From: Gonatopus flavifemur
Taxonomy: Eukaryota > Arthropoda > Insecta > Hymenoptera > Dryinidae
DNA length: 64,000 nt
NCBI GenBank assembly: GCA_018340375.1
Contig: JAFFJZ010000007.1
Span: 25,890,001-25,954,000 of the forward strand
Reading direction: 5' to 3'
Position 1 is the stretch's first letter. Every line of letters starts with the position of its first letter. This document shows, piece after piece, positions 1,082 through 61,936 of the stretch. Both the position numbers and the translations under genes were made by a program. A model generated the notes under the pieces. That model did no database searches, was not told the DNA's origin, and saw only the letters and a program-made list of their open reading frames with translations.

Positions 1082-1954
1082 AGACGGTATAAAAGAATTC
1101 GCGCACCGTATTTTGCAAGTGTATTCTGCAGACAAAATGCAATTATTCCCCGTTTGGAAGATTTTTTTAGAAGCTCAGTTTTTGAGGTGTCGCAAATCAT
1201 TCAATGGCACAGTGTGCTACATACTTGAGCTGATGCTCTCTGGAAAAAATTCAACTATTCTATCGTTGTTCGTTTTGGAGCCATAACGATTTCCCTTGTA
1301 AAAATGAATCATATATGCGGCATCTATGACCACACATGGTACATATATGATTTCACAGATTCATATATCACCCCTATATAATTCATATATGGGCCATATA
1401 TGATTTCAGACATTCATATATGGGCCATATACATTTCATATATGGCGTTATGTTCCCTATATATGCGTCATGTTTGGTCCTTATATGGGTTGAACAATCG
1501 TATATGAATTTTATATGGTCATATATGCCACATATATGAATTACATATGATTTATATATGACCATATATGATTTGTACCAAGCCCATATATGAATCAAAT
1601 ACAGTTTATATATGGGTCATATATGAATCATTTTTACAAGGGTTGAAGATTTGCTAAACTCTGATTGGCCGGAAGCTCAAAAATTTTAAATCGCTTTAGC
1701 TCTAGAACGCACAATGATAGAGTAGTCCAATTTTTTTCCAGAGATCCGCCGTTTTCCAATGTAGCCAATGGTGTCAAGCTGAAATTTATAGCCCAAAATC
1801 CTTTTGAGTTATTTGGATTTGAAAAAAAAACTCTAAAAATGCACATATTCCAAAGACTACGCCTGGAAAGAATGTTTTTCAAACGAGAAATTATTGCATT
1901 TTGGCTGCAGAATACACCTGTAACATTCGTTCCACGAATTCTCGGACACCCTGT
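1082..1954. mobile_element. Palindromic element of the CAGGGTG-ended family, interrupted
   Basis: The right arm (1643-1954) ends GGACACCCTG followed by TA. It matches the element at 60437-61001, including CCAGAGATCCGCCGTTTTCC and GCATTTTGGCTGCAGAATA. The left arm (about 1082-1292) is its inverted partner and is more decayed at the tip. The CATATATG-type element at 1293-1642 has inserted between the arms. The 104-codon open frame across the right arm is incidental. Confidence 0.6.
1293..1642. mobile_element. CATATATG-core palindromic element (CCC...GGG type)
   Basis: The element begins CCCTTGTAAAAATGAATC and ends GATTCATTTTTACAAGGG, with TT on each side (1291-1292 and 1643-1644). The interior is filled with dispersed copies of CATATATG and close variants, a self-complementary octamer. 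Small hairpins therefore lie inside one large hairpin. It is a sister of 29113-29480 and sits inside the CAGGGTG-type element. Confidence 0.75.
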
Positions 1955-2477
1955 ATCTTTGATTCCTCATGAAACGTAAGTATTGAATTATTTTATTCCA
2001 TTTAAGAGGTTCTATTTTGGAACACTTTGATAAATTTTGAACTAGATCATTCAGTATGTGACTTCAAATTCGTTTCAATGAACGAGTCAAATTTCAGCAA
2101 CATAAATTGACCCGTCTTTCGAGTGGAAGCTTTTGTGCTTCGATATGTCGATATTATCGTTAACGCAATGAATGTTTGGTCAAGAAAATTACTCCGTGAA
2201 TCTTCTCACAAGTCTTGATGATTAATAGGAGTCATGAGAAATACATTCATCGTTATGAAACGAAGCTGGTGATGAGGGAATGAGTTATGATGAAAAATGG
2301 TGAAGGAAAGAGTGTATTCTAGCAATGATATATCTCTTGGCAAACACGATAAAGAAAATTTCCTCCTTAGACCACCTATTTGCTGTAATTATGAATTCTT
2401 ATCGAACATGTTTTCTTCCCAAAATAAGATTTCTATGATCACACGGTGATCCATCTTGCTATCCAAAATCAATCCTA
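1955..2477. other. No recognisable feature
   Basis: AT-rich sequence without a credible open frame, terminal repeats or known motif. Confidence 0.4.
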
Positions 2478-3412
2478 CTCCCCATATAGAAATTTACAAT
2501 TGGCGCTAGCATGGTGCAACGTAGATAAAGTATGGCCGAGGCTTGGCAACCAAGCATGGCGCAACACTGAAATCATAACATCATTTTATGATTTATCGAC
2601 GTGTTTTTCCAATGAAGTCCCATCATCGATGAAACAATGGCAATGAAATATACCATCATTGGCAAACAATTGGAAATTTTGTTTGTCAATGCTGCGCCAA
2701 TGATCAAAGTAAAAAATATTTAACCCAGAAATATATAAAAAGGATGCGCATTTCGCAATTTCTGACATATGTTGTTTGGAGTCTTATTATTTTCCCCTCA
2801 TTTGTTTGTGAACAACCCAGCGTCTTTTGTAGTAAATTTTGCCATAAGAAGTGGACACAATGTATGTTAGTTCAGCGGTAGGAGCCCTCTAGTGTGACTT
2901 ATAGTAAAGAGCGATTGACTGTTCTTCCAAAGACTTACTTAATATAGTAAGCCTAAATAAATAAGCCTTATATATTCTTCGTATACGCGTTTCACCACCC
3001 ACGAGAAATACTTGATTAGTAACGTAGCAAAAATATTATATAGGTCACCAATATTGAGCCATGTTATTACCAATGATCGGCGCTACATTGAAAGTTAATT
3101 TCTACCGAAAATAGGCCAAAGTTTGGGGCAATATTGAACCAGATTTTAAATGATCCTGGCATTGAATGCAATCTATCGTTTAGTCAATGTTGGGCCAAAG
3201 ATGAGCCAAGTAAGAGCCAAGCTTGGCGCAATTGTGCCACAATATTAGGCTGACAAACGAAATCCGTCGAACACCGACATCGGTGCAACATTGTATTTAT
3301 TGTTAATCAAAATTGAAGATCTATAGATTGCCAAGCCTTGTCTGTCAACATTGCGCCAAGCTATATTTTATTATCAGCATTGGCGAAGCCCAAAAATTTT
3401 TGTATATCAGTG
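2478..3412. repeat. TTGGC/GCCAA-core palindromic repeat region
   Basis: The words TTGGCGC, GCGCCAA, TTGGC and GCCAA recur in both orientations throughout, for example CAATTGGCGC near the left edge and GCATTGGCG near the right. The outer ends (CCCCATATAGAAATTT and AAAAATTTTTGTATAT) are imperfectly complementary. A 3'-like block around 2700-3050 may be a later insertion. No target duplication could be fixed. The architecture matches the other palindromic elements of this window. Confidence 0.45.
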
Positions 3413-3531
3413 ATGAAAATTGCAATGCTCAGTGATTGAAATTGATCATTCTTGCAATAATACAAAATGAATCATTGCATAATTGATTAGAAAAATTTGG
3501 TACATACTGGTAAAATGTTAATATTTCCTAT

Positions 3532-3813
3532 CCCATACAGCACAAAAGTCCCCGCGAAGAGCTCCCGTTATGACTGTAAACATGAATTCATTGTGAATAG
3601 TTTGAATTCAAAATGAACTCTTAATGAATAACTCAATCTTCAGAAAGAATTCATATCACGAATTCATAAAGAAATATCCAGGCATTCAACATGTATGCAT
3701 TTTGAATTCATTGAGTTCATATTGAATTCATTTTTACTGTCATAACGGGGACTGTTCAAGAAGTTCTTTCAGAAGTTTTTGTGAATTCAAGATGATCATT
3801 TGTGCTGTCTGGG
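3532..3813. mobile_element. GAATTC-core palindromic element, copy 1 (CCC...GGG type)
   Basis: The element starts CCCATACAGCACAAAAGTCC and ends ATTTGTGCTGTCTGGG, with AT on both sides. The interior holds about ten GAATTC or near-GAATTC palindromes. It also carries the paired words CCCGTTATGACTGT and ACTGTCATAACGGGG. Close copies lie at 3972-4253 and 57008-57290. Confidence 0.75.
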
Positions 3814-3971: not shown

Positions 3972-4253
3972 CCCAGACAGCAAAAATAACCCGTTTGAAT
4001 TCTTGAAGACTCCTTAATGAGTTCTTGGAACAGACCCCGTTATGTCAGTGAAAATGAATTCAATATAAATTCAATGAATTCAAAACGAATACATGTTGAA
4101 TGCCTGGAGAATTCTTCATGAACTCACAACATGAATTGTTCCTGAACAATAAGTTGTTCATCAAGAATTCAATTCGAATTCAAAGTATTCATAATGAATT
4201 CATGTTCACTGTCATAACGGGAGCTCTTCGTGAGGACTCTTTTGCTGTATAGG
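3972..4253. mobile_element. GAATTC-core palindromic element, copy 2
   Basis: This copy lies 160 bp from copy 1 and in the opposite orientation. It starts CCCAGACAGCAAAAATAACC and ends CTCTTTTGCTGTATAGGC. It keeps the inner words CCCCGTTATGTCAGTG and CACTGTCATAACGGGAGCTC and many GAATTC palindromes. Its terminal GGG has decayed, so the duplication is unclear. Confidence 0.65.
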
Positions 4254-4546: not shown

Positions 4547-4812
4547 CACTGAGAAAACAGATATCTTGAAAAATACCATAATTTATGGATTTTCAGCGCT
4601 GGTCTGACCCGAGTCGGAATATGCACTTGCATGAATCTCTAAAAGTACCATAATTTCTTGGACTTTTTGAAATAAGTATGGTACCTTCCGTATAAAAGTG
4701 CAAGACATGATGGTACTTTTAGAGGTTTTTTCAGGTGAATATTTAGACTCGGTCAGACCAGCGTAGAAAATCCATAAATTATGGTACTTTTTAAGATACC
4801 TTTTTCTCCGTG
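4547..4812. mobile_element. Palindromic MITE, CAC...GTG type
   Basis: The 266-bp element begins CACTGAGAAAACAGATATCT and ends AGATACCTTTTTCTCCGTG, with TA on both sides (4545-4546, 4813-4814). The arms pair over most of their length through CATAATTTATGGATTTTC and GAAAATCCATAAATTATG, and through CTGACC...GGTCAG. Confidence 0.8.
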
Positions 4813-4827: not shown

Positions 4828-5017
4828 GGTGGAAAGAATTCGTATTGAATGCCCGCAGAATTCATTATGAAATTTCGATATGAATTCTTTCTGAACATCA
4901 AGTTGTTCATTGAGAGTTCACTTTGAATTCAAAATATTCATAATAAATATATATTGATTAGCATAACGGGAGCTCTTTGCGGGAACTCTTGTGATGTATA
5001 GGCTTCGATGTATGTCA
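4828..5017. repeat. Truncated GAATTC-core element (one arm)
   Basis: This is the right part of a GAATTC-family element. It has several GAATTC-type words, then CATAACGGGAGCTCTTTGCG and a decayed end TTGTGATGTATAGGC. The left part is missing and the adjacent CACTGAG element lies next to the break. Confidence 0.55.
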
Positions 5018-6580: not shown

Positions 6581-6773
6581 CACGGAGAGAATTGAATAGT
6601 AATGATTCCGATGTGGAATGTTCAAAGGAGAATACATCGTAACGATTACGATGTTTCGTAGTGCTGACTACCTCGAAAACAAGTGATGCCTACATTTTAT
6701 GCGATTTTTCGTGATAATAATCCAATCAGTGGCATGTTCACATTGCAATGTTTATTATTTAATTCTCTCCGTG
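6581..6773. mobile_element. Palindromic MITE, CAC...GTG type (family of 22438)
   Basis: The 193-bp element runs from CACGGAGAGAATTGAATAGT to AATTCTCTCCGTG, flanked by TA (6579-6580, 6774-6775). The interior shares ATCGTAACGATTACGATG and TTTCGTAGTG with the copy at 22438-22620. Confidence 0.75.
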
Positions 6774-15876: not shown

Positions 15877-16400
15877 TATTTTCCTCCCGCTGCAAGCGGG
15901 CAGAAAGTATTTTCCTCCCGTTGCGAGCGGGCAGAAAGTACTTTTCTCCCGTTGCGAGCGGGCAGAAAGTACACGGAGAAAAAGGAATTCGCTGTGGCAG
16001 CGAAATCTACTTTTGCTGGGTTCCTTTTGCCATAGCAGCAAATTTTTTGCTGTGACAGCAAACTATTTGCTGTTCCAGCAATCTTGTTAGCTGCAACAGC
16101 AATTTTTTAGCTGTGGCAGCAAAAAATGTTTGCTATTCCAGCAAAATTTGTTTGCTATTCTGTATATAATACTGAAAATTCGCTGGCGGAGCAAACATTT
16201 TTTACTGCCACAGCTAGAAAATTGCGGTCGTAGCTAACACGATTGCTGTTATAGCAAATTTTTAGCTAGGTCAGCAAAAAATTTTGCTATTCTATATATA
16301 ATACCTCGATTTGCTGCGTCAGCAAATTTTTTCTCTCCGTGCACTTTCCTCCCGCTGCGAGCGGGCGGAAAATATTTTCCTCCCGCTGTGACACATTCGC
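15877..16400. repeat. 31-bp hairpin tandem array split by a MITE
   Basis: The unit TATTTTCCTCCCG..GCGAGCGGGCAGAAAG repeats at 15877, 15908 and 15939. After the inserted element it resumes at 16342 and 16373. All starts are 31 bp apart once the insertion is removed. Each unit carries a CCCGC-TGCAA-GCGGG stem-loop. The units abut with no variable spacer, so this is not a CRISPR array. Confidence 0.8.
15972..16341. mobile_element. GCTG..CAGC-core palindromic element, CAC...GTG type
   Basis: The 370-bp element begins CACGGAGAAAAAGGAATTCG and ends AAATTTTTTCTCTCCGTG. TA precedes it and CA follows it, exactly at a unit boundary of the 31-bp array. The interior is a run of short hairpins GCTG-N3..6-CAGC (GCTGTGGCAGC, GCTGTGACAGC, GCTGTTCCAGC, GCTGCAACAGC), which together form one large inverted repeat. 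A truncated inverted copy lies at 26643-26928. Confidence 0.8.
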
Positions 16401-16969: not shown

Positions 16970-17150
16970 CCCACACAGCAAGCAGTCCTTCAAGACGTCT
17001 AAAAGAGTACTGAATTCATGTATCTTCTTATGAAAGATCTCTTGCTGCGCGAGTTCTATAAGACAACTGTAATTGAGATATATTCAAGAACACTCATAAA
17101 CATTTCTTGAGGATATCTTCAAGAGCACTTCTAGAACAATCCCAATAGAC
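16970..17150. repeat. Left arm of a possible CCCACACAGC-bounded element
   Basis: The arm starts CCCACACAGCAAGCAGTCC and continues with CTTCAAGACGTCTAAAAGAG and further AAGAxxTCTT words. The inverted counterpart lies at 21170-21432 (ATCTTCAAGAACTGCGTGC then TGTGTGGG). The two arms enclose the DUF7869 gene, a partial 17160-17830 repeat and two small MITEs. The flanking dinucleotides (AT and CG) do not match. Confidence 0.45.
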
Positions 17151-17159
17151 CAATTGAAC

Positions 17160-18200
17160 CCACGGGAAGAAGAACTCGACGAGCGCTCGAACCGCGGTAA
17201 GAGTATTGTCCAAGCGGTCACGTGGGGGACCGAAAAAAAAGTCGGAATTTTGGAAAACTAAAAATACTGGGTGATAGGGCTTGAAAAATCAATAGGAGTG
17301 TTCGTTCACAATGTCCTTCGATGATCAATAGTTTTCGAGAAAAAAATTAAAAAGTACCTCTTTTTCTCGTACTAAAAATGAATGTTTTTTCATCTTAAAC
17401 TCGTTATAACTCTAGCAGTTTTCAACGTATCAAGATGAGTCTTGCAGATTCTGATTCGGAACATTCCCCCGAAGATGACGATCTCGGCAAAATCTTCAAA
17501 AATTGATGCAAAATTAATGAATTTTCAATTTGAAGTGAGGACTTGGTTTTCAACGAAGAGGAAAACTTTGCATTGAAAAAGTGTCGGGGGGAGTATGAGC
17601 TACGAAAAACTTCCAGCGACAAAGTTGTTCGCTAGTGTGCGGACAAACTTTATGGAAAGTTTCAGATCAATTGGACTATTGGTTCGAAAGATACAGCGAT
17701 TTATCCATCAGCTCGCAACGGAAATTTCTCATGACTCTACGTCGTTTACCTGCTGAATATGAGGATCCGAATGAAAGGTTGCATTCACTCGATTTCTCAA
17801 CGTAGATTCATGTTTTTTTGGTCGAAGCATCCAAATATCCAACTATTTTTGCAAAATTCGTTATACATTGTTTTTTTTATAAACAATTTTTATTCAACGC
17901 ATCATTGTTCAATCCTTATTCTGCAAGATGAAAATTGAAGATTGAACATTTGCGTGCTCTCTCGAACTCAATAGTTTCCGAAACTTATTTCACGATTACT
18001 TGGACAAATCTTATCGGAATGATATAAACATTGATATCCAGATTCGATGTGTATTGCCGAAGTTTGTAAAATGATTCGAATGATGAAAACATTTCGTTTT
18101 TCAATAATATTTGATAACGAATTAGTGGCTCTCAGGCTCGTGTTTTCCGAGTTTCAACGACACAAAGTGTCGAGCGAAATGTGAAATTAAGGAAACTTCG
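17160..18200. repeat. Partial copy of the large palindromic element of 31504-39328
   Basis: The segment begins with AACTCGACGAGCGCTCGAAC and runs through GAGTATTGTCCAAGCGG, AAATACTGGGTGATAGGGCT, AACTCGTTATAACTCTAGCA, ACTTCCAGCGACAAAGTTGT and GCAACGGAAATTTCTCATGA. These are in the same order as the left arm at 31504-38080, but here without the solo LTR or mariner. It diverges around 17850 and the right arm is not visible. The 66-codon frame on the minus strand is a by-product. Confidence 0.65.
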
Positions 18201-18554
18201 AACAATAAAGTTATGCTCTTATGTTTGAGGAAGTTTTTCTGGAGATGTGAAATTAATCGAACAAAAAATATGGGGTTTGTGATTTATGTAAAACGATCTC
18301 GTCTTATGAACGGGTCCTGTATAACATCATATTCATGTCTTGAAATATATTTCAGACAAGTTTAAAATGTCTCATGCAACGTGTTTGGATATCATTCACA
18401 TCATATATGACACATACAAACCTCGTGATAAAAGTTCATTATTTGTACTTTTTCTTCAGTCATAAATGATTTGGAAATGCTAGTGAACTTTGAATTGTTT
18501 ATAGACATGATTGTCGAATTGAATTCGGACAAATTTAATTCGAATTCAATGTTA
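18201..18554. other. No recognisable feature
   Basis: AT-rich spacer between repeat fragments. Confidence 0.35.
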
Positions 18555-18661
18555 CCCTAACAGCACAACTGCTTTCCGTTACCTTTCGATACCTTTCTGC
18601 AAAGTATTACACGTTCCAGAAAGTCATCGAAAGGTAACTGAAAGCAGTTGTGTTGTGAGGG
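18555..18661. mobile_element. Short CCC...GGG palindromic element
   Basis: The 107-bp element begins CCCTAACAGCACAACTGC, continues TTTCCGTTACCTTTCGAT and ends ACAACACAACTGCTTTCAG-like in inverse, closing with GTGTTGTGAGGG. TA lies on both sides (18553-18554, 18662-18663). The right-hand TA is also the left flank of the next element. Confidence 0.75.
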
Positions 18662-18663
18662 TA

Positions 18664-18952
18664 CACGGAGAAAAAAGATTCGCTGGAATAGCAAGAATTT
18701 CGCTGTTCCAGCGAAATTCGCTCGTTATTATATGGACAGCAAGCAAGTTTGCTGAAATAAACGCCAATGATATTTTCAACGAATCAAGCTTCGCAAGACC
18801 AGCGAAGGACTGATGATTATAACGAATCAATACGTAAAAACAGCGAATTAGTTCGTTAATCCAGCGCATTGGTTCGTTAATACAGCGAATTTCTATTCAA
18901 TCCACTTAGCGAAGACGGATTCATTCAGATAGCGAAATCTTTTTTCTCCGTG
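18664..18952. mobile_element. Palindromic MITE, CAC...GTG type, inserted at a neighbour's TA
   Basis: The element begins CACGGAGAAAAAAGATTCGC and ends GCGAAATCTTTTTTCTCCGTG-like, with TA on both sides. The interior repeats GCGAA/TTCGC words (ATTCGCTGTTCCAGCGAA, CAGCGAATTAGTTCGTTAAT). It abuts the 18555-18661 element through a shared TA, so one inserted at the target duplication of the other. Confidence 0.75.
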
Positions 18953-19076
18953 TAATGAACCAAAATTGCCCCCCTTGGACACAATACACTGTAAAAAATT
19001 CATGTAAATAAACGATTCAAACTGCATACAATATATTTTGAACCAAAAAAAGAAATTATATCATTAGAGTGAATAA

Positions 19077-20713
19077 TTATTCTTTATTTTTAGGTTTTCT
19101 AATTGATATTTTCGAAAATAAGCTTTCAAAAAATTTTACACCTTTTGGACTCAAATATTTTAATAAAGTTTGTAAATCTTTCATCTTCTCTGCACTTATG
19201 CCAGTTGGAGCAGCTGGTGGTGATTTGCATAATGCATGTAAACTCACTGAAGATTTGATGATATGAATTTTTGGTTCTCCATTGTAAGTTTGGAATATAT
19301 TGATTTGACCGTTAGGAAAATATTGAATCTGTACTGCTTTGCTGATTTGCAGATTCTTAATATCTTTGACATTTTCCTGTAACAGAACCTCATAATCTCG
19401 GACTGGGCAATCTACTTCTCTGACAATTTTAAATGGTGGATTTCTTGCACTCTCTATGAGATCAATGTAGTCTTCATCCGTTTCAATAGTTTCAAGTTGT
19501 TTCTTTTTTTCGCCATATACTCCAAAATTCCGATCGCAAGAGCAGTATGAATGTCCACGAACTGGATACACATGTTCAAATTCAAGTTGCAATTCTTGAG
19601 CCAACGATGATAAGAAAGAGACGAGGAAACGGTTTTTATTCTGACCACCGCAACCATCCGAAAATAAATAAATTTCATTGTAATAATTAAGCTCCAATTC
19701 TTTCTTCATTGCATGTAAGAGATAAAATTGCACACAGTATTACCACCTTTCTTAAAATTTCCTTCTAAAAAAAAGAACATGTAACTTCTGCCATGTTCAC
19801 CGAAGACATGCACGTTAAAAACGTGTAGCCAAAGCAATCTCTTGTAGAACTGATTTGATACAGGAATTTTCGGCAAAGGTAAACTTTGACCGAAATCAAA
19901 TTCAAGACATAACACATTTTCTTCTGCCGACATTTTCTTCTTCAATATTTTGTACTCTTCTATACTTTTTTTATGCTGTTTGAACTCATCACCAGGATTG
20001 TTTTGCCGCTCTTGTTCAAAACACATGTTACAAACATCAGTGCGTGGTATTGAGAAAGAAAAATTCAAATGACGATTAAAATATTGAGAGTAGGTTGATA
20101 AATCAATCGGAGGATTTTCACAACCTGTTTTCGCTGTATAATATTCTAAAAACAAAGCGTATATTTTTTTCAGTGTTGAATTAGGATGATCAAAATATTG
20201 TAAACTAGACGTTTGACCGGCTTGACGTTTATAATGCGACTCAGAGTGTGGGATTAACAAACAGTGTTGATGGATCATTTGTTTTACATCTTCGGTCAAT
20301 CGCACTACGTGATTTCCATGTTTTCCCCGACTATCTTCGATAGTTTCATTATGTAATATCTTTTTCTGTATAGTTGTAAATCGCCCTTGTCCTATGTTCA
20401 ATAAATTACATAAAAATTTTTGACAAGTCTTTATGTCACCGAATTCAGCATGCAAAAAATAATTCCACAAAACAACTTTATTCTGCGCATTTCCTGTAAC
20501 ATTTGGCGCTCTCTTTTTCATGAGTCCAGCGAGGAAAATATTTTGAGAATCATATTTGCCATAGTTCCAAAATGTGTCATGAAATTTTTGTTGTTGTTGA
20601 ACAGGAATATTTTGGAAACACTGTTTTACGCAGCACGAATTTACGGGTTTGAATTGCTTAGCTCCAATAGATTTCCCAGAAGTCGAAACATATTCTCGTC
20701 CCTGTAATACCAA
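19077..20713 (-). pseudogene. DUF7869-type protein gene, one frameshift
   Basis: Two overlapping minus-strand frames (20713-19706 and 19733-19077) together give about 550 codons of one protein. The first part has GREYVSTSG near its start, a basic segment with HCLLIPHSESHYKR, a Cys pair in DVCNMCFEQE, and LEFDFGQSLPLPKIP. The second has FSDGCGGQNKNR and GHSYCSCDRNFG, the signature blocks of the DUF7869 family, which is widespread in insect genomes. Conserved acidic residues in those blocks suggest an RNase H-like nuclease or transposase fold; that is inference. The frames join at a T-run near 19724-19728 where one T appears to be missing. The 5' end looks like a splice acceptor (TTTGGTATTACAG then GGACGAG), so an upstream exon may exist. 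The reading frame is otherwise intact over 1.6 kb, so the copy is young. Confidence 0.7.
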
Positions 20714-21169
20714 ATGATCGCGTTATACAATTCGATATTCCAAACACTATCCAAGTTCTCAACATTGAATAATTATTTTTAAGTAATAATTTTGTATCGA
20801 CTGTAACACACTATTTAAAGATTATTTCAGTAATGTATCAATTGTATTTCATTCTTTCATCTTCATTACATTTCAATATTGTTCCACAAGAATATATCAA
20901 AAATCTGTCAACTGAAATGTTCCCTATTTGCAATGTCTCAGATATATTACAAAAGAAACATTACAATGAAATATTTCATAAATGTTCTTGAAATATTTAA
21001 AAAATAATTCAGAAATCTTGTATTGCAATGTAAGATTAGCGGACATTGCAATATTTGTGAAAGGACTTTGAAATCTCAGTACGACATGCAGCAATATTAC
21101 AAGAATATTCCAATATTTCAAACGTTAGATTTCTGCGGTCGTATTAGATTAGGTATTTATAACCTAAAC
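20714..21169. repeat. TGCAATATT-rich palindromic stretch
   Basis: Between about 20860 and 21125, ATATTGTTCCACAAGAATAT, CATTACAATG, ATTGCAATGT, CATTGCAATATT and ACAAGAATATTCC recur as inverted pairs. The ends are not clear. Open frames here are incidental. Confidence 0.4.
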
Positions 21170-21432
21170 CTGCTGACAATCTATCTTCTTAAATATATTT
21201 TGTTGAAGTCTTCCAGGAAAATATCTTTCAAACGCTTCTCAAAGATATCTATAAGATATCTCGCATGGTCGTCTTGGAGATGTCTTGAATCGAGACATCT
21301 TTTAGAAATCTTTCACAAGATGTCTTTCCAACACTTCTGAAAGATATCTTTAAGAACTCTTCAAGAACGTTCTTGAAGATCTCTCAATTGAGTATTCTTT
21401 TAGATATCTTCAAGAACTGCGTGCTGTGTGGG
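21170..21432. repeat. Right arm of the possible CCCACACAGC-bounded element
   Basis: Repeated AGATATCT, AGACATCT and AAGAACGTTCTT palindromes lead to AAGAACTGCGTGC and the terminal TGTGTGGG. This mirrors the arm at 16970. Confidence 0.5.
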
Positions 21433-21645: not shown

Positions 21646-21843
21646 CCCATAAAACAGAAAACACTTTTCAAATACATTCGAACAGAAGTATTTAAAATGT
21701 ATACAAAATTCATATTTGATGTATTACAAATACATTTGAAATGTACCAAATGCATTCAAAAAACATTTCTGTTTGTCGGAAAAGGATTCAAAATACTTTT
21801 CTGATTGGAAAATGCATTTCAGAAGGTTTTTCTGTTATATGGG
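21646..21843. mobile_element. AAATACATTTG-core palindromic element (CCC...GGG type)
   Basis: The element starts CCCATAAAACAGAAAACAC and ends TTTTTCTGTTATATGGG, with TG duplicated (21644-21645, 21844-21845). The interior repeats CAAATACATT, TTAAAATGTATAC and AATGTACCAAATGCATT words. Confidence 0.75.
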
Positions 21844-22622: not shown

Positions 22623-22976
22623 ACAATAATAAATAAGACGTCAAGTTGATTTCAATGATTGGTGGCTCCATGGCTAATTCTGCCGTCTTGAGCAAAAGGC
22701 CGTATGTCAATGTTTTCGATCAAAACAATCTGAATAAAGCGACGGTATGTACGGTTGATTGGTAAAATACAACAGGATCTTATCAAAATGAACTTAATAT
22801 TAATATCCCGGTTATCACTTTTTAGTCAGCTCATTATAATATCTTGAGTTGATTGTTCTTATTAAAATAATTCCATTCATGAAATATATGCAAGTATCAG
22901 TCTTGTCGGTGGATGTAGGGGATATGGGCACGGATTCTATATGCTTTTGTCTTTCCTTGGTTTATGTGAGCTCCCG
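22623..22976. other. No recognisable feature
   Basis: Spacer without supported coding or repeat structure. Confidence 0.35.
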
Positions 22977-23392
22977 GGAAAAAATGGTTAGGTCTGATTA
23001 GATCTAATTTTTGGTGAGATCTGAACAGATCTTTTAAGATCTAAAGACACTGCAATTTGAGCTTATATTCGTCAACACACATGTTTGAATTTGAATTTAT
23101 ACATGGGAAAATATCACAAAATTTTTGATAATTGAACAGTCAAGTGCTCATCAAGATCAAACGTGATCTTCAATCCAGATCTAACGAGATCTAAACGGAT
23201 CTAACCAGATATTTCAAGATCTAGTCAGATCTACTGAGATCTGGAGCACTGAAAAAACAAAACAGTAATGATTACTGTGAATCGCACGAATCATTCAAAA
23301 ATTCTGACAAAAACAAACGGATAGCAGAGGTGACTGTAATAAACGTAATGATTATTGAATTCACAATACTGATGTACGTGCTGAACTGTAAT

Positions 23393-23608
23393 CCCAGATA
23401 GCAATTTAACCTTGCTGCAATCTTGGCAGGCAAGCTTGTGACAAGGTTGACATAAGCCTCCTAGTTGACACACGACAATGGTACAAGCTTACAAAACCCT
23501 TGCAGCAGAGTTGTAGCAGCCTTGCACTGACAAGGTTGTTAATAGCAAGTCAAAAACAATCGAATGACAAGTCTGGCAAGCTTATGACAAGCTTACATGT
23601 TATCTGGG
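23393..23608. mobile_element. AAGCTT-core palindromic element, copy 1 (CCCAGATAG ends)
   Basis: The element starts CCCAGATAGCAATTTAACC and ends AAGCTTACATGTTATCTGGG, with AT on both sides. The interior repeats CAAGCTTGTGACAAGG, GTACAAGCTTAC and CTTGCTGCAA-type words. Further copies lie at 41854-42068 and 61721-61936. Confidence 0.8.
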
Positions 23609-26189: not shown

Positions 26190-26628
26190 CCCGTGGGAAA
26201 AAAACCACGTTGAAAACAATGTTGGAAATAACGTTGAAAACAACGTTGGAAACAACGTTGAAAACAACGTTAAAAACAACATGGGGAAGTACGTTGAAGA
26301 CAACGTTGTTTACTATGGGAAAATGATTTCTCTTCGGAAAAGAAAAGAACAACGTAGTTTCCTACATTGTTTCCTACGTTGTTTACCACGTGTACCACGT
26401 TTTCCCACAATTCCTCAAGCACGGTTATGGAAGTAGGGTCTATTGAGAGGATCCTATTAGAAAATGCATTGCGTGATACGTCGCAACAACGTAGAAAACC
26501 ACGTTGTTTTCTATGTGGTTTTTTTTTTTTCGAAGAGCAACCATTTCCCCATGGTAAACAGCATTGTTTGCAACGTTGTTTTGAATCAAGTTTTCGACGT
26601 TGTTTTCAACGTGTTTTTTTTCCCCGGG
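26190..26628. mobile_element. AACGTT-dodecamer palindromic element (CCC...GGG type)
   Basis: The ends are CCCGTGGGAAAAAAACCACG and CGTGTTTTTTTTCCCCGGG, with TA on the left and CA on the right. The left arm is a near-tandem 12-bp repeat AACGTTGAAAAC / AACGTTGGAAAC. The right arm is its reverse complement. AACGTT is self-complementary, so the arms can fold locally or with each other. Asparagine/valine-rich open frames here are repeat artefacts. Confidence 0.75.
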
Positions 26629-26642
26629 CAAACGTTAAAATT

Positions 26643-26928
26643 TTGTTATAACAGCAATCGTGTTAGCTACGACGGCAATTTTTTAGCTGTGGCAGCAAAA
26701 AATGTTTGCTCCGCCAGCAAATTTTCAGTATTATATATAGAATAACAAACAAATTTTGCTGAGATAGCAAACATTTTTTGCTGCCACAGCTAAAAATTCG
26801 CTGTCGCAGCTAACAAGATTACTGGAACAGCAAATAGTTTGCTGTCACAGCAAAACATTTGCTGCTCTGGCAAAAGGAACCCAGCAAAAGTAGATTTCGC
26901 TGCCACAGCGAATTCCTTTTTCTCCGTG
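26643..26928. mobile_element. Truncated GCTG..CAGC-core element (inverted copy of 15972)
   Basis: The right end AATTCCTTTTTCTCCGTG is intact at 26928. The left end is lost near TTTTGTTATAACAGC, next to the AACGTT element. The interior matches 15972-16341 in the opposite orientation (TTAGCTGTGGCAGCAAAAAA, AACCCAGCAAAAGTAGATTT). Confidence 0.75.
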
Positions 26929-29112: not shown

Positions 29113-29480
29113 CCCTAGTAAAAATGAATCATATAAGAACATACATAAAGCATATAGAAACCATACATGGTCATATATGACCATATATAATTCATACGCA
29201 ATCCATATTGAATCCGTATATGATCATATATGGCCCATACAGAATCCATATATGACCCTTCGATGCAAGACTTTCCCATACATGTGAAAAAATTCTGTCA
29301 CATATGAAATATTTTTCGTATATGGATTTTATATGGATTATATATGAGTCATATATGATCATATATAGATCACATATGGATTAAATATGGATTGTATATG
29401 ATTCTATGCATTTTCATATATGAATTTTATATGTATGTATGGATTATGTATGGGTCATATATGTTCGTTTTTTACTAGGG
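29113..29480. mobile_element. CATATATG-core palindromic element, copy 2
   Basis: The element starts CCCTAGTAAAAATGAATC and ends GTTCGTTTTTTACTAGGG, with TA duplicated (29111-29112, 29481-29482). The interior is filled with CATATATG, ATATATGG and TATATGACCATATATGA words. It is a sister of 1293-1642. Confidence 0.8.
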
Positions 29481-39134: not shown

Positions 39135-39332
39135 TATTTTCATCTCGAAAACCATTGACAAAGGAAAAAAATCGTAAGGGGATAGTCACATTGATCTTTC
39201 AAGACCTATCACCCAGTATTTTTTAATTTTCGAAATTCCAACTTTTGATTTTGGCGTGTGACGTCACGGCTTGGACAATACTTTTCCCCACGTTCGAGTG
39301 CTCAGCGAGTTTTTCGATCCAGCCGCTCAAAT

Positions 39333-39816
39333 GAGATCTAAGTAGATCTCATCAGATCTAAATTTTGGCAAAAATCTCTACAAATCTGTATGAACAGATT
39401 TATCTACAGATATCTACAGTACATTAGGGTAAGATGACGCACTTTGCCGCTCAACCGTAGCACGGAATAATACATCAAACCTCATTAACTCAAGGAAAAT
39501 TTCAAGATTGTAATTGAATCTTCATATTGTTCTTGCTTGAACGAGGTTTGATGTATTATTTGATGCTGTAGAGGAGCGGAAAAGTGCTTCATCCCACCGG
39601 CATTTACCCTACTTACATCTGATATCTGCACTTACTCTCAAAGATTCCAATTTTGCAAGGGATCCAAAAAAATATAGGAAAATCCACAAAAATTTCTGGA
39701 GATCTCTGTAAATCTCCGGAGATTCCTTGTTGCCAAAATTCTAGATCTGAAGAGATCTGTATGTATCTCGAGAGATCTATCCGGATCTCAGTAAATCTAA
39801 TCTTTTTTTCTCGCGA
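39333..39816. mobile_element. AGATCT-core palindromic element, copy 2
   Basis: AGATCT-type words recur on both sides (GAGATCTAAGTAGATCTCAT, CAGATCTAAAT ... GAAGAGATCTGTATG, GAGAGATCTATCC). The right end AGATTAGATTTACTGAG-inverse then TTTTTTTCTCGCGAGG resembles the left end of 22977. The left end abuts the large palindrome. It is interrupted by 39427-39609. Confidence 0.55.
39427..39609. mobile_element. Palindromic MITE GGGTAAGATGACGC...ACCC
   Basis: The element begins GGGTAAGATGACGCACTTTG and ends TGCTTCATCCCACCGGCATTTACCC in degraded inverse, with TA on both sides. The arms share ATAATACATCAAACCTC / GAGGTTTGATGTATTATT. Confidence 0.65.
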
Positions 39817-41853: not shown

Positions 41854-42068
41854 CCCAGATAACATGTAAGCTTGTCATCAACTTGTCAGACTTGTCATTA
41901 GATTGTTTTTGACTTGTTATTAACAACCTTGTCAGTGCAAGGCTGCTACAAATCTGCTGCAAGGGTTTTGTAAGCTTGTACCATTGTCGTGTGTCAGCTA
42001 GGAGGCTTATGTCAACCTTGTCACAAGCTTGCCTGCCAAGATTGCAGCAAGGTTAAATTGCTATCTCG
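41854..42068. mobile_element. AAGCTT-core palindromic element, copy 2 (inverted)
   Basis: The element begins CCCAGATAACATGTAAGC and ends GGTTAAATTGCTATCTCG, flanked by AA. It is the reverse orientation of copies 1 and 3 with the same interior (GGTTTTGTAAGCTTGTACC, CTTGCCTGCCAAGATTGCAG). Confidence 0.75.
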
Positions 42069-42536: not shown

Positions 42537-42876
42537 CTGCTGAAATCATTAGTTCAACCCTTCACAGGTGGATAGGAACTTTCGTGAAACATCGGATGAT
42601 TATTTGTGAGTGTAAAAATATACCAGGGGAGGATACGTCACAATTGAAGGGCCGAATCGAATAATCGGTTGTGCGCGTGATCTTTCGTCTAGTACACTTG
42701 AAAATAGGCAACCGCGCGCACCCAGCTAACCAAAGCTGATAAATAACTGGTCAATTATTACCCAATGAAATTGGGTGGGATTGATCAATACTTGTCCATT
42801 TTTGTGTCCGCATTGGCGACCAATAATTGATCAATTTCAGTAGATCATTGGATTCCCCAATTGCAGGGCAATCTTA

Positions 42877-43496
42877 CACTGTTAAAAATTTCTGCATTAA
42901 TTTTAATGTTTTTACTGGAAGTTTTTTTCAAGTACGTACATGAATTCAGTTTCATGCGCATTTTACATGAAATTTAATGTGAACTATAGCATAATCTATA
43001 GTCTTTTCATGTTTTTGTTAGGGGTGCACACGATATTCTCGTCGAGACTGAAAAAGAATACATCATCTTAATTTAAACGTGTTCCAATGAGGTATCCACC
43101 GCACAGAATTCCGACTTCGTATCTAATGAAACGGAATAATCGATCATTCCGATTTCATAAACAAGATCAACCAAGATATGCTTCCGGTATCGTTTGTCAG
43201 TCTCGTCTCGTCTCGGTGCAACGCTCAATGCAGATCTCGATATAGATCTTGATCATTTTCATTTGCAAAATCAAAACCTGTCACGAATTTGTTCCGTCTG
43301 ATGCGAAGCCTCAATTGAGTTTAGTAAACCATGTCTTATTAACAGTAGAATGATGAATACATACATCATTTTCCAAGTTCTTGACGCGAGTCTCGTGTGC
43401 ACCCCTAGTTTTTGTACATTAAATTTAATGCAGAATGTATATGAACCTGATTTCATGTACGTAATTGAAAAAAACTTCCAGATATTTCTGACAGTG
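42877..43496. mobile_element. Palindromic MITE, CAC...GTG type, interrupted
   Basis: The element begins CACTGTTAAAAATTTCTGC and ends CCAGATATTTCTGACAGTG, flanked by TA. It is the inverted equivalent of 13783-14005, with the 385-bp GGGG-ended element inserted at a TA near its centre. Confidence 0.8.
43021..43405. mobile_element. GTCTCG-core palindromic element GGGGTGCACACGA...CCCC
   Basis: The element begins GGGGTGCACACGATATTCTC and ends GAGTCTCGTGTGCACCCC, with TA duplicated (43019-43020, 43406-43407). The empty site is readable in 13783-14005. Inner words include TCGTCGAGACTG and CAGTCTCGTCTCGTCTCGG. Confidence 0.8.
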
Positions 43497-44984
43497 TAGC
43501 CCAATGGCATGGGCATAGTTGCTACCATCAGCTGTGAAATAACGTGATCCATAATTTGGCAATTATTGGACAATTATTTTAGTTTGAGAATGATCGAAAA
43601 TTGACCAATAACTCGTCATTGATTGATATATACTGTGAAACTTTGAATCACTTTAAAATACTAATATAATAACTTCAGTGTAAAAAAATTTTGTTCAAAT
43701 TTGTCAAACATTTGCTTTGAATTTTTTCATTTCAAAACTGTGATGAAGACACTATGAAACTGAATCCGTTCATTTAACATTATAAGATATAATTATCTGC
43801 AATTCGCGTATTGCTAATTCAAATAGAAATTATAACCCGAAACCACACTTTTTGATTGGAATGGAGTTCAATCGGTTCACTCGGTTATAATAATGATAAT
43901 AGGAATTTGCATTCATGCTCCGAAATTGAGGCTATGAATAACCTCAATTCATCGCGACAATTTTACCGTGCCACGAATAATATAAAATCCGAATGAGTTG
44001 CGATCACTGATACGACGGAGATGAATGAATCCGATAAACCACAACAATTTTTTGTAATGAACAATATATGATAAATAATTCTATTCTATTAACATGACAT
44101 GACCCATGCAAAATTCCATATCACCGATAGAAAATAAGTGATGTTTTACATTTCCAGATTTTCGATTATGGACGTATGTTGAATGAACAATTTTTGGTCA
44201 ATTTTATGAACCACGAGATTGATCAATAATTGTCCTGTTCTATGTCCGCATTAGCGACCAACAATTGGTCCTTCAAACATGATCAATTTTCGATCAATCG
44301 TTATCCAATGAATGGATATGCGCATAAAGATCCTACATAATCCCCAAATAATTGATCAATTATTAGCAAATCTCATTGGAATCAATCAAATTGACCAATG
44401 ATTGGAACCAATCCGAGGTTGGCTGGTCAATGCCGTCGGAGGACTTTTATCATAAAATAAGGTGAGATATTCGCGATACTAAAAAAAATGCCAGTGGGAA
44501 AGTTGTTGCAAATATATTCAACAACACTTTGACAAGTTCTGAGACAATTCCATACTGTAGGTTATAAATTATCACAGATTCCCCAATAAAAATATTTCTC
44601 TTCAAAATTCTTCAACACTCTTCCGATTTTTCTACATAACTGTCAGATTTCGAACGCTTTGAGAGATTTGCAGAATTTTCAACCATAAATATTACTCTAC
44701 AAATTTCTGCATTACTCTGCAGAATTGTACATAATTCTTCCAATCTTCTTAATATTTTATGAATTTCTCCACAAAATTCGTACAAAACTTACTCAAATCT
44801 TCATATTACATTAAATACTTTTCTGCATATTTCTGCATTACTCTACAAATCTCTGTTTTATCTATTTATCTATTCACTTTTGCTTGAGAAAAAAAATTTT
44901 TGTTCAGAGTTTATCTCTACAAATCTCCTCCCAGTTCGACTTGAATGACATTACGGAAGAGACACCACATTGAAAGTCCATTTT

Positions 44985-50060: not shown

Positions 50061-50146
50061 ATTATACCCTACAATATTTCCTGAATATTGCTGAATTCTC
50101 CTAAATAATAAGATGGATCATTGATACCCCTCGAAATTACACACTT

Positions 50147-50235
50147 CCCGATAAACATACAAATCTTAAAGACATCTAAAAGATGTCTAAGAAAAGACAT
50201 CTTTTCGACATTTCTAAAAGACAACTTATAGACTT
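50147..50235. repeat. AGACATCT-core arm fragment
   Basis: CCCGATAAACATACAAATC leads into GACATCTAAAAGATGTC, AGACATCTTTTCGACATT. The likely counterpart is 54030-54181, which ends GATATATTTTTGTCTATGTGGG. Confidence 0.4.
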
Positions 50236-51891
50236 ATATATAGGTAATTTCTCTTAATTGCATCTATATTCTAAGTGAAGAGTTGTAGTTCTTACTACAG
50301 TATACCCGCTAAATTTCTAAAAGTGAAATTTCCACTCTCAATGTAAAATTTTACATTGCATTATTTTAAAATGCATTAGCACTTTCACCCTCCAAGAGTG
50401 AGAAGATGACTTTAGTAGAATGAATCTCTCCACTTTTCAAACTAGAATGAAAAGTATCACTCGTAAGTAGAGAGTGAATTATACTTCACCTATTTGTGAA
50501 TTAAAATATCACCTGTCTTAGAGTCAAATATCCCAGCTTATTCATATTAAATCGATGCTCAGATTTTCTATTTCTTGCAATGCTTGGTTTTGAATATTCA
50601 TCTATACTTTTGTTTACTTTCAGGATAGTTATTTCATTCTCTTGGAAATTTATGGAACTTTCTTATTAGAAGTGATGGTACTGATCTGGAATACCTTTAG
50701 TTCTATATGATACCAATAATTGATAATCCTAGGCGTCATTAGCCAATACCTCATGTCTCATACCTCATCAGTCACTGTGTCTGATACCATGTATTTATAG
50801 ACAATAGTGAGTATACCCTGTAACAATAAACAATATTGGATATAGTTGATAAATACCATGTATCGATGAACAATATTGGATACAGTTGGTCTATCCCATG
50901 GATCGATGAATAAAATTGGATATAGTTGATCAATACCACATATCCTTGTAGAAGATCATATTCAGGTTGTTTGAACTGTATATATGAACCTTAATGTAGA
51001 TTTTATTGATGGAAATTGCAATTGTAGATCTCTTTCAATTTCATAAAACTATTTCTAATTAAATCTTACGAAAGCTTTTCAAATTGATATTTCAATACTG
51101 GATGTACTATACTGAAAATCATTCCAGTTCTTTTGGTTGATTTTTCATAAAAGAGTTTGTTTTCTGTGATTAATTAAGTTATACAAACAATTTTTACAAA
51201 ACCTCAGTAATTTTACACTTTTGAATCATGAAACATTTATTCTGATACATAGTTTGAAGTTTTTTGTCTTTTCTGATACCCATGAACGTTTGAAACAAAA
51301 CATTTTATTCTAAGTATCTACATTTCATTGAAAACATGTCATTCAATGGAATATTTTGATCGCAGTCTTCTTGTATTGTAAGAGTTCCTTTCAGATTCAT
51401 ATACTCTTACTAAAATACATTGAAAATCCGAATTATTCTTTGACTTATTCTCTTTTCATGGGCTTTTTTAATGGCTTATGTATATGTTTATTAATCGTAT
51501 AACACTAATATACAACTATCCAATTACATTGTAAAATATAACATCTTTTCATGTATACATCTCATACATTTGTACCGTTTACTGTGAAACATTCATTATA
51601 TTTCGAACATTTATTACAATTAATAAAATTATTATACATAATTCAACCTAACATAAACAAGATATACTGAATGTTTCATAATGAAGGCCACAGGCCACAG
51701 ATATATGAGATGGATATATGAGGAGGTATTACATTTTACAATAAAATTGGATAGTTGTATATTAGTGTTATACGATTGATGAACATATACATAAGCCATT
51801 AAAAAAGCCCATGAAAAATAAGTCAAAGAATAATTCAGATTTTCAATGTATTTTAGTAAGAGTATATGAATCTGAAAGGAACTCTTACAAT

Positions 51892-52480: not shown

Positions 52481-52983
52481 CCCGAAGAGAACATGAAGCT
52501 TCAGCGAACGTTCAGATCAGATGTGTATAGATCGGGTTGAAGGTTCATTAGAGCTAACTTTTAGATTCACAAACGTTTGACAAAGGTTCTACGGACGTTG
52601 ACATGTCCGCTTCGAAGTACATTCAAGAAACATAGATGGAACGTTCGCTGAAGGTTCATCGAAGGTTTGACGAAGCTTCACAAAAATATCTATACTTATA
52701 TTAATTTTGATCAATTTATATGAAAAATAAATGAATTAATAAACATAAATTATTATAAATTAATCTAAGTATAGATATTTTTGTGAAGCTTCTTCAAACC
52801 TTCGATGAACCTTCAGCAAACGTTCCATTTATGTTTCCTGGACGTATTTCAAGGCGGACATTTCAACGTCCGCAGAACCTTTGTCAAACGTTTGTGAATC
52901 TAAAAGTTAGCTTTCATGAACCTTCGATTCGATCTATACAGATCTAATCTGAACGTTCGCTGAAGCTTCATGTTCTCTTCGGG
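52481..52983. mobile_element. GAACGTTC/AAGCTT-core palindromic element (CCC...GGG type)
   Basis: The 503-bp element begins CCCGAAGAGAACATGAAGCT and ends AGCTTCATGTTCTCTTCGGG, with CA on the left and TA on the right. The left arm at about 50895 gives the empty site. Interior words include GAACGTTCGCTGAAGG, GCTTCAGCGAACGTTC, GACGTTGACATGTCCGC, and at the centre a pair TATCTATACTTATATTAATT / AATTAATCTAAGTATAGATA. Confidence 0.82.
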
Positions 52984-53751
52984 TATGGCATCGATCAAGT
53001 GTATCCAATGTTGTTTTCAATACATGGTATCGATCAACTACATCCAATTTTGTTCATCGATACATGGTATTTATCAACTATATCCACTATTGTTTATTGT
53101 TACAGGGTATACTCACTATTGTCCATAAATACATGGTATCACACACAGTGACTAATGAGGTATGAGTCATGAGGTATTGGCTAATAACACCTAGGATTAT
53201 CAATTATTGGTATCATATAGAACTAAAGGTATTCCAGATCAGTACCATCACTTTTAATACGAAAATTCCATAAGTTTCCAAGAGAACGAAATAATTATCC
53301 TGAAAGTAAACAAAAGTTTAGATGAATATTCAAAATCAAGCATTGCAAGGAATAGAAACTTTGAGCGTCGATTCAATATACATTGAATTAAATTCACTTC
53401 CAAATTCACAATCCACTTCAAATGAAATTATACATCAATAATTGTAAGTTCAATTCATTTTATTGAGAAAATTATATAACCTCTCACAGTACATATATCA
53501 TATATGTGATTTAAAAATTTTGAGGTTAGAAAATTACATGGATTGGAAATTTGTCAACGTCGGAATCAAATTCTATTCACTAGCACATCATTACAGAATT
53601 TTCAATACTTCGCTATATTTATCCCTAATATTATAATGATTCAAAAATTCACCGAGTCTGATTGGATTATTATTGTAACACATGGTTCTATAGGAAATCA
53701 ACCGAGGTATTCCAGAAGCACTTGTTGCAACTTTTTCTGCCCCTGACACAA

Positions 53752-53860: not shown

Positions 53861-54029
53861 TACAACGAGCAGTTACAAAATGGTGCGGAGTTGGGGATGT
53901 TGGTGAAAAGACAAAAATGAAATATTTTTTTTTATTTTCTTCTACAAAAACAACTAAAATCTGTGACAGATTTTTTTCCCCCTGAAATACACATTTTTCA
54001 AGAGTGCTCTTCAAAATTTGCATCATATC

Positions 54030-54181
54030 TGAAACTCGTCTAGAAGAAGTCTAAAAGATATCTTCTAGATATCTAGTAAGAGTCCTAAAAGATGTCTTAC
54101 TCAAGACATGTTTTGGATGTCTAAAACTGGCGCATAAGACATCTTCTAGATTTCGAAAAGATATATTTTTGTCTATGTGGG
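54030..54181. repeat. AGATATCT/AGACATCT-core arm fragment
   Basis: TCTAGAAGAAGTC, AAAGATATCTTCTAGATATC, AAAAGATGTCTTACTC and AGACATCTTCTAG are clustered and end TTTTTGTCTATGTGGG. It is similar to 21170-21432 and 50147-50235. Confidence 0.45.
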
Positions 54182-54289
54182 AAGGGGGTTTGCATATTAA
54201 TAATTTGAAAATAATGATATTCAATTATGTATAACATAACCTGTACCGATTTATCCTCCTTTTTCAATAATTTGGAACTGGAGAAGAAT

Positions 54290-57007: not shown

Positions 57008-57290
57008 CCCATACAGCACAAGAGTCCCTTCAAAGACCTCCCGTTATGACAGTGAACATGAATTCATTATGAATATTTTGATCTCAATTCGAATTCTTGA
57101 TGAACAGCTCGGTTGTTCAGAAAGCATTCATATCGTGAATTCATCGAGAACTATTAAGGCATACAACATGTTTTCTTTTTGGATTCATTGAATTCATATT
57201 GAATTCATGTTCCCTGTCATAAGGGGAACTTGTTTAAGAATTTTTTGAGAAATTTCTGTGAATTCAAAATGATCATTTGTGCTGTCTGGG
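57008..57290. mobile_element. GAATTC-core palindromic element, copy 3
   Basis: The 283-bp element begins CCCATACAGCACAAGAGTCC and ends ATTTGTGCTGTCTGGG, with TA duplicated (57006-57007, 57291-57292). It is collinear with 3532-3813, so length and word order are conserved 53 kb apart. Confidence 0.82.
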
Positions 57291-59180: not shown

Positions 59181-59339
59181 TACTGTTGTGATATATGATA
59201 CCAGTTATAATATTCAGAACCTTTAAATCGGTAGTAAAGGTACTTTCAAACTCATGATGGACGATAATGATTGGGATACGTTTTCATAATTTTCTTGACA
59301 ATCCTGCACTAAGCAAAAAATCAAAGTCCTTCGTCCTAG

Positions 59340-59878: not shown

Positions 59879-59882
59879 AGAG

Positions 59883-61184: not shown

Positions 61185-61234
61185 AGAGAACCCCCATCAT
61201 TTTCTCCAACGTACATTCCAGCACATTGTAAGAG

Positions 61235-61505
61235 TGCTAATGTTTCGGACGAGACCGAGACTGATCTCGGGATCGACCCCGAGATCAAGACGAGACCGAT
61301 GTAAGACGAGACGAACAATTATTTTCGGAGATCGAGACGATACCTGCCAAGCCGAGAATCTCGACGATACCGAAACGTATAGAATGCATTGTCGACACCG
61401 AGAATGGCGAGAATCTCGACTCAAGGCTGAGACGATACTGATTTTGTCGAGACCAAATCGAGACCGAGATCGAGACCCGGTCAGTCTCGGCGAGGAAGAA
61501 ACACC
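61235..61505. repeat. CGAGACCGAGA-rich block
   Basis: GACGAGACCGAGACTGATCTCG, CCCCGAGATCAAGACGAGACC, GCCGAGAATCTCGACGATACC, GGCGAGAATCTCGACTC and GTCGAGACCAAATCGAGACCG alternate in both orientations around CGAGATCTCG-like centres. Overlapping frames of 94-136 codons on both strands (rich in Arg, Asp, Ser) are artefacts of this simple pattern. Confidence 0.65.
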
Positions 61506-61720
61506 AAAGAGTGCTGATTTCTGTAGCTTGTTCATTTAATAAGAATCCAAGTATTTGATCATTTTTCAAACTGTTTGTTGCATTATCGATTTCAGATTTT
61601 TAAAGTGACTAATATCATCACGTTTATGAGATTTCTTTGATTTAATTGGTTCAAAACAACGATTGTACAGGTCTTCAACCTTGAATTCTTTGCAACATCT
61701 TTTATTCACATGACTACATG
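61506..61720. other. Spacer
   Basis: Nothing recognised. Confidence 0.35.
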
Positions 61721-61936
61721 CCCAGATAGCAATTTAACCTTGCTGCAATGTTGTCAGGCAAGCTTGTGACAAGGTTGATATAAGCCTCCTAGTTGACACA
61801 CGACAAGGGTACAAGCTTACAAAACCCTTGCAGCAGGGCTGTAGCAACCTTACACTGACAAGGTTGTCAAAAACAAGCCAAAAACAATCGAATGACAAGT
61901 GTGACAGGGTTATGACAAGCCTACATGTTATCTGGG
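61721..61936. mobile_element. AAGCTT-core palindromic element, copy 3
   Basis: The element begins CCCAGATAGCAATTTAACC and ends GCCTACATGTTATCTGGG, with TG duplicated (61719-61720, 61937-61938). It is the same length (216 bp) and orientation as 23393-23608. Confidence 0.8.

Follow-up and report, generated by a model that had tools for sequence, protein, structure and literature searches.

What arranges short self-complementary words inside inverted-repeat transposons, and why would neighbouring families each carry a word of their own? The question arises from a 64,000-nucleotide stretch (the window) of the 636 Mb, 402-contig genome of Gonatopus flavifemur, at C370:25890001-25954000. A preliminary description had proposed that many elements there have arms built of repeated short palindromes, one word per family, a level of symmetry not shown by ordinary miniature inverted-repeat transposable elements (MITEs). 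The phenomenon is real; too many families had been grouped as alike, and the register in which the words recur had been missed. We found this second symmetry level, with one word per family, in terminal inverted repeat (TIR) elements with fixed ends, and unrelated words recur at close to 11 bp. With modest confidence, we interpret these as non-autonomous CCC...GGG transposons, probably TRC-like, whose body is predicted to be an enlarged subterminal array of binding sites.

Pairs of CCC...GGG or CAC...GTG with matching ends were catalogued irrespective of their flanking bases. The CCC-type elements and associated word arrays are listed below with their 2-bp target-site duplication (TSD), word, and z score for self-repetition at the given lag; the coordinates first given for A, B, F, I, K, and D were correct to within a few bases.

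A1, 1293..1642: CCC-type element, TSD TT, word CATATATG at 18 sites with at most one mismatch; lag 11, z 5.9.
A2, 29113..29480: CCC-type element, TSD TA, word CATATATG at 16 sites; lag 11, z 7.7.
B1, 3532..3813, forward strand: CCC-type element, TSD AT, word TGAATTCA; lag 11, z 4.9.
B2, 3972..4253, reverse strand: inverted neighbour of B1, with flanks CA/CA only if the right end is shifted by eye to 4253; lag 11, z 5.3.
B4, 4833..5013, reverse strand: partial B copy.
B3, 57008..57290, forward strand: CCC-type element, TSD TA, word TGAATTCA; lag 11, z 3.7.
F1, 23393..23608, forward strand: CCC-type element, TSD AT, word CAAGCTTG at 7 sites; lag 11, z 5.1.
F2, 61721..61936, forward strand: TSD TG, word CAAGCTTG at 4 sites; lag 11, z 4.9.
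F3, 41854..42068, reverse strand: flanks AA/AA, word CAAGCTTG at 6 sites; lag 11, z 4.6.
I, 26190..26628: CCC-type element, no TSD found, word CAACGTTG, unit 12 bp; lag 12, z 9.2.
K, 52481..52983: CCC-type element, no TSD found, word GAACGTTC/GAAGCTTC, unit 11 bp; lag 11, z 6.2.
E, 22973..23246: CCCGGG start, word AGATCT, unit 10 bp; lag 10, z 7.0 in the right part; right limit provisional, as the next element starts at 23247.
E2, 39325..39420: second AGATCT array, ends not found; lag 10, z 5.7.
Z, left piece, 16970..17146: CCC-type element, word AAGATATCTT, no TSD found; lag 11, z 4.4.
Z, right piece, 21144..21432: lag 11, z 5.3; top local-palindrome tile among 426.
M, 21646..21843: CCC-type element, TSD TG, word about AAATACATTT; lag 11, z 2.4.
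J, 42721..44427: CCCAGCTAACC element with TTGATCAA arrays at each end, flanks CA/CA judged by eye, and a CAC-type insert at 42877-43496; word spacing p 0.061.
L, 18555..18661: short CCC-type element, TSD TA, no repeated palindrome found.

Identical 2-bp flanks bound nine of 14 CCC-type elements (TT, TA, AT, TA, AT, TG, AA, TA, and TG), against 0.076 by chance; B2 and J gain matching flanks if one end is moved by eye, and I, K, and Z have none. In an alignment of 28 B copies, which leaves out L001 (the same as B3 of the window) and adds B1, the 2-bp TSD is found in 16 (chance, again 0.076) and the CCC core is retained at both ends in 16, CCC being a requirement of the searches themselves. hAT elements make 8-bp TSDs and Tc1/mariner MITEs always duplicate TA; here just 2 bp match (0/25 elements at 3 bp), and TT, TG, AT, AA, and TC occur as insertion targets of CCC-type elements besides TA. 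A second class with CAC ends (CACGGAG or CACTG), which has matching 2-bp flanks in 8/11 cases, includes the elements described at first by the word GCTG..CAGC:

D1, 15972..16342: CAC-type element with CACGGAGAAAAA ends, interrupted word TTGCTGNNNCAGCAA, unit 20-22 bp; lag 20, z 4.9.
D3, 18664..18952: CAC-type relative of D1, TSD TA.
D2, 26642..26928: truncated CAC-type relative of D1, adjoining I.

Palindromic 6-mers were tallied per half element, in 49 halves or ends, against 1,000 dinucleotide shuffles; because the count is per half, the large inverted repeat cannot inflate it. The proposed words stood up to this comparison for CATATATG, GAATTC, AGATCT, GAACGTTC, and, in the left half of its element, AACGTT. 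The commonest palindromic 6-mer of A1 is ATATAT (8 and 7 per half, p 0.001 both), and that of A2 occurs 4 and 5 times (p 0.033 and 0.15). GAATTC occurs 3-4 times per half in B1, B2, and B3 (6/6 halves, p 0.001-0.009), AGATCT 4 and 5 times in E (p 0.001 both), and AACGTT 5 times in the left half of its element (p 0.003; right half, p 0.97); for the commonest palindromic 6-mer of K, p is 0.011 and 0.029. AAGCTT is marginal as a strict palindrome (2 per half in four of six halves, p 0.026-0.033, with nothing notable in the other two) and passes once a mismatch is allowed (CAAGCTTG, 7 and 4 sites, p 0.005). Other words fell away: no clear excess over shuffles was seen for CAAGCTTGG (11382-12050, p 0.998 and 0.058) or TTGATCAA (42721-42890, p 0.16), and TTGCCCC at 47953 is, by reading, not self-complementary. 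The GCTG..CAGC word is indeed repeated, with 13 sites of TTGCTGNNNCAGCAA at up to three mismatches in 15972-16342 against 0.1 expected from base shuffles, but it is interrupted; the sole notable strict palindrome of these elements is AAATTT (p 0.012 in a half of the element at 15972 and 0.049 in a half of that at 26643).

We also scored the best palindromic 8-mer with one mismatch over whole elements, against 200 shuffles in which the large repeat was not preserved. It reached p<=0.04 in 14/19 CCC-type rows, namely A1, A2, B1, B3, F1, F2, I, E, the left half of K, both pieces of Z, and three elements at other loci (L003:2100, L006:2094, and L006:605). M (0.075), L002:480 (0.085), and L007:1786 (0.14) did not pass, nor did L002:878 and L007:2530, whose limits are badly set. 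Among controls, one of seven CAC-type elements and neither of two other fold-backs passed; the ordinary fold-backs tested lack the second symmetry level in local palindromes and RNA folding as well, as first proposed.

Total palindrome or local-hairpin content, tried as a measure, proved much weaker than the repeated word: total content has p <0.05 in only 10/49 halves or ends, and dyads are raised in 7/16 stretches. A 426-tile scan for local palindromes placed the right piece of Z first (z 6.1), the TTGATCAA element second, and then tile 3151, an AGATCT tile, tile 28651, and the other AGATCT tile, of which tiles 3151 (third) and 28651 (fifth) belong to no settled element. When the best 8-mer was chosen blind, it was a perfect palindrome in 0/20 lag-11 segments and 0/255 background tiles; the best palindrome ranks within the top 15 blind 8-mers in A, B1, B3, F, K, and Z and far lower elsewhere.

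The words recur in a common register. Families with unrelated words repeat themselves at lag 11, AACGTT at 12 and AGATCT at 10; lag 11 is the top lag in A1, A2, B1, B3, F1, K, and both ends of Z, and dinucleotide shuffles agree. Word spacing is significant (p<=0.012) in seven of 14 tests, covering A, I, K, Z, and E, with the right half of K omitted because it is a mirror image. When elements of the window and seven other loci were chosen only by their CCC ends (10/13 matching) and 2-bp TSD, 14/16 had 11 as their top lag (z 2.4 to 7.8); of the other two, one has top lag 10 and one, which is short, neither. As B1-B3, F1-F3, and A1-A2 are copies rather than independent families, the 14 (six B, two A, and two F copies and four singletons) represent seven families; four of the 16, all B copies, had been retrieved because they resemble B. 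CAC...GTG ends picked in the same way gave top lag 11 in 0/13. A control with the other 62 terminal triplets gave 88/748, and is not clean because many such pairs lie within word arrays.

Base composition, or a general 10-bp periodicity of DNA picked out post hoc, might produce such a signal. In a blind scan of the window, lag 11 exceeds z 3.3 in 4.1% of windows and lag 10, also raised, in 2.1%, compared with 0.2-0.5% for lags 7-9, 13, and 14. The raised lag 10, like the modest rise in total palindrome content, fits an origin in composition; against it, background tiles have a mean lag-11 z of 0.1, with lag 11 on top at z >3 in 5/393, and the CAC-type elements share none of the register. We repeated the test around seven other B copies, in 936 windows of flanking DNA that exclude the B copies themselves, and there lag 11 is raised in 7.05% and lag 10 in 5.77% of windows, against 0-0.85% for lags 6-9 and 12-15. 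These merged into ten lag-11 segments; of eight displayed, seven show at least one CCC-type end by eye and one is a simple repeat. Some segments are additional B copies, and others bring ends and words not seen before, TTGTACAA and AGATATCT among them. The register thus recurs in DNA not used to form the idea, and an origin in composition is very unlikely.

Between dispersed copies of two families, the words are better conserved than the bases between them. In A1 versus A2, CATATATG columns agree at 0.83 and 0.76 and base-matched spacers at 0.63 and 0.65 (circular-shift p <0.001 and 0.11). In six ordered pairs of B copies, with the partial B4 excluded, words agree at 0.88-0.95 versus 0.77-0.80 for spacers (p 0.018-0.16; 0.13-0.19 in a leave-one-out version), and over the 28 aligned B copies words average 0.947 versus 0.917 (p 0.032); the consensus of these copies has 8 GAATTC and repeats at lag 11 with z 5.2. 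In F, words are no better conserved than spacers. In 17/21 ends, the distance from the terminus to the first word is 16.5-20.5 or 26.5-29.5 bp, and the phase of this word modulo 11 is clustered over eight families (R 0.72, p 0.011), in a test that is exploratory because its words were hand-chosen.

These observations bear on slippage, by which self-complementary units of 10-12 bp would expand in tandem via single-strand hairpins, like triplet repeats, leaving old, decayed, functionless minisatellites within MITEs. Arrays with units of 10, 11, and 12 bp, the almost perfect tandems of I and E, and some arms that fold well single-stranded are what slippage could leave behind. It does not account for words that outlast their spacers between dispersed A and B copies or for the similar terminus phase over families, and the same 11 across many families is unexpected if slippage is free. 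We regard it as unlikely.

The large hairpin varies from element to element. Over the outer 60 bp, the arms of K are complementary at 0.92, so the hairpin is faithful there, and it is poor in A1 (0.57), A2 (0.50), B1 (0.42), and B3 (0.40). It partly follows from the small symmetry, because palindromes set in register make up a track that equals its reverse complement. Foldback replication or gene conversion between arms, one cause offered at the outset, would spread words by copying one arm onto the other, as the likeness of the K arms might suggest. Yet the poorly matched arms of A and B carry most words, and such copying sets no register: it predicts neither an ~11-bp spacing common to unrelated words, nor the end phase, nor words conserved above spacers (seen in A and B, not F). 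This origin is very improbable.

The other cause offered was structured RNA, retained for its fold or processed from hairpin transcripts into small RNAs. Single arms folded alone as RNA gain clearly over dinucleotide shuffles in A1 (z -3.2), A2 (-3.5), I (-5.8), the right piece of Z (-4.3), D1 (-3.8), and E (-2.6), which is what this explanation expects, but not clearly in B1 (-1.5), B3 (-1.3), F1 (-1.0), K (-1.7), or the left piece of Z (-0.4); two ordinary fold-backs gave -0.3 and +1.6. No Rfam family was found in the window at gathering scores. Moreover, an 11-bp register and end phase are features of double-stranded DNA, and RNA predicts no fixed register. We consider structured RNA highly improbable.

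Inside the B copies is a second inverted pair, CCCGTTATGACAGT...ACTGTCATAACGGG (3564-3749, 4036-4221, and 57040-57226), which matches better than the outer arms, as if an element were nested in an element; no 2-bp TSD flanks it. K sits in the right arm of a long inverted repeat at 50713-53210, whose outer 60 bp match at 0.93-0.97 and which has 40-bp tandem units at both ends.

A spacing near one helical turn, the end phase, the orientation-free words, and the conserved words of two families point instead to proteins on double-stranded DNA, as our interpretation of the elements as subterminal binding-site arrays would have it. In each family, a self-complementary word of 8-10 bp would recur at roughly 11-bp steps (10 or 12 bp in some families) through nearly the whole element, with a similar phase relative to the terminus. 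Most likely, each palindrome would be bound, in either orientation, by a dimeric DNA-binding domain belonging to the cognate transposase or to a helper like TNPA of En/Spm, so that neighbouring dimers would cover the end with about one per helical turn. A row of dimers may help to pair the two element ends. Each family's protein would have its own word, and the packing distance would stay constant; that units of 10, 11, and 12 bp occur suggests packing of dimers rather than strict helical phasing.

We compared the elements with known systems as set out in the accessible portions of the cited papers. TRC elements (SmTRC1, Tribolium, Aedes) have CCC ends with 2-bp repeats, and 7/14 SmTRC1 copies have 2-bp direct repeats at the insertion (PMC1636069). 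The CCC terminal core and 2-bp direct repeats both occur here, and the Tribolium TIR starts CCCTAGTAGCACC where A2 starts CCCTAGTAAAAATG (PMC1636069). Judging by ends and TSDs, the elements probably belong to TRC, the animal CACTA-like group. SmTRC1 has features of its own (a 54-bp TIR, an internal AAAGGGGAAATAAAG repeat, and a Transposase_21 gene), and those portions of the report describe no family-specific palindromes or 11-bp register (PMC1636069). Plant CACTA elements (En/Spm, Tgmt*, Jozin) have subterminal units specific to each family, 10-20 bp long and placed both directly and inverted, and the repeats of Tgmt* form stem-loops (PMC8978399, PMC2613891); units of this kind are seen here. 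They differ in having CACTA ends, with a 3-bp TSD in Tgmt*, and units restricted to the ends of large elements, and the portions consulted describe no register common to families (PMC2613891, PMC8978399); the ends here are CCC and, in the second class, CACGG/CACTG. We regard the present elements as probable cases of such subterminal arrays, of CACTA-like elements, expanded over the entire element.

Other likenesses are more partial. Hermes has a quasi-palindromic repeat pair, placed exactly relative to the TIR and cooperatively bound by transposase BED domains, and Tol2 has a perfect palindrome AAGTACTT with a further repeat 10 bp on; both have one pair, unlike the up to 18 words here (PMC10368747). 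Galileo/Foldback elements have internally repetitive, family-specific long TIRs, with three transposase (THAP) binding sites in a 1.2-kb TIR, but a P-superfamily transposase and, in the portions available, no palindromic arrays at 11 bp (PMC3688188). The ATon elements of Aedes aegypti comprise many orphan TIR families with a dinucleotide target, one of them with subterminal stem-loops; their target is always AT and their ends begin with T, whereas here ends are CCC and targets vary (PMC3422177). No description of an 11-bp register over several families was found in the open-licence literature, as far as its accessible portions go, and exact family words occurred at 0 loci in three scans of viral contigs.

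A candidate for the partner protein lies within Z, which is interrupted between its two pieces by a nested transposon whose left limit was set from one locus and right limit from four:

17147..21143, reverse strand: nested DUF7869 long-TIR transposon, without a right TIR here; separate from the word-array finding.

The gene lies between CCCACACAGCA ends at 16970 and 21432, as an autonomous partner of CCC elements might. Four genomic copies, however, match at 97-98% and all end at 21143, and DUF7869 elements elsewhere in the genome have long TIRs and ends other than those of the CCC element. Because the gene is nested, we dropped the idea, which is refuted at this locus and, as a general proposal, almost certainly wrong.

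The DUF7869 elements deserve a record of their own. DUF7869 (PF25273) proteins are predicted to resemble RNase H-fold transposases, with D, D, and D invariant in 47/47; PF02992 (Transposase_21) was absent among the 25 families, out of 31, displayed for these 47 proteins. They lie in long-TIR elements (17147-21143; loci L029-L058), with 1774 first-look genomic candidates, of which 79 were scored and many have an open frame near 550 aa. The named hosts among 120 relatives listed are insects, several of them wasps. None was confirmed in viral and GTDB contigs, and no paper naming the domain was found in the open-licence literature. Inside the nested element, upstream of its gene, 20723-21143 has top lag 11 (z 4.3) with AATATT-like words; lag 11 is not the top lag of its long TIR.

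Additional word arrays in the window have less certain limits:

53980..54190: patch of the Z word, AAGANNTCTT, without identified ends; lag 11, z 3.9.
50140..50260: second patch of the Z word, without identified ends; lag 11, z 3.4.
2470-3400 and 11382-12050: family G, with provisional ends; lag 11, z 4.3 in the former and lag 24 in the latter.

TIR elements with CACGGAG/CACTG-like ends and 2-bp TSDs lie at 725-955, 4547-4812, 6581-6773, 18664-18952, 25504-25737, 38893-39134, and 42877-43496, and several of the CAC class have top lag 20-22, not 11. A 58-bp unit (GTCAGTCGAGAATCTGAC...) is repeated in tandem at 33210-33413 and 60272-60405, on opposite strands. The longest frames of the window are the DUF7869 gene and mariner-type transposase fragments, with broken frames (PF01359/DDE_3) at 32179-32871, 34514-34963, and 62547-63550.

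Subterminal repeats are usually described for a single family at a time; here, many families of one genome have a near-equal register and unrelated words. Sequence can therefore show how transposase specificity coevolves with its binding sites and how the end complex is arranged. Copies for a full test are plentiful: a first look at the 636 Mb gave 2928 B-type candidates, 40 of them scored. Taken together, the ends, the 2-bp TSD, and lag 11 also offer an inexpensive means of detecting an abundant MITE class with little sequence in common. More tentatively, and with less than even confidence, we suggest that this is one superfamily with a fixed ruler and interchangeable address words, in which the word may have been replaced many times while the ~11-bp spacing and end phase were retained. 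If so, a row of dimers spaced one helical turn apart would recognise the ends, and a joint change of the word and the DNA-binding domain would give rise to a new family.

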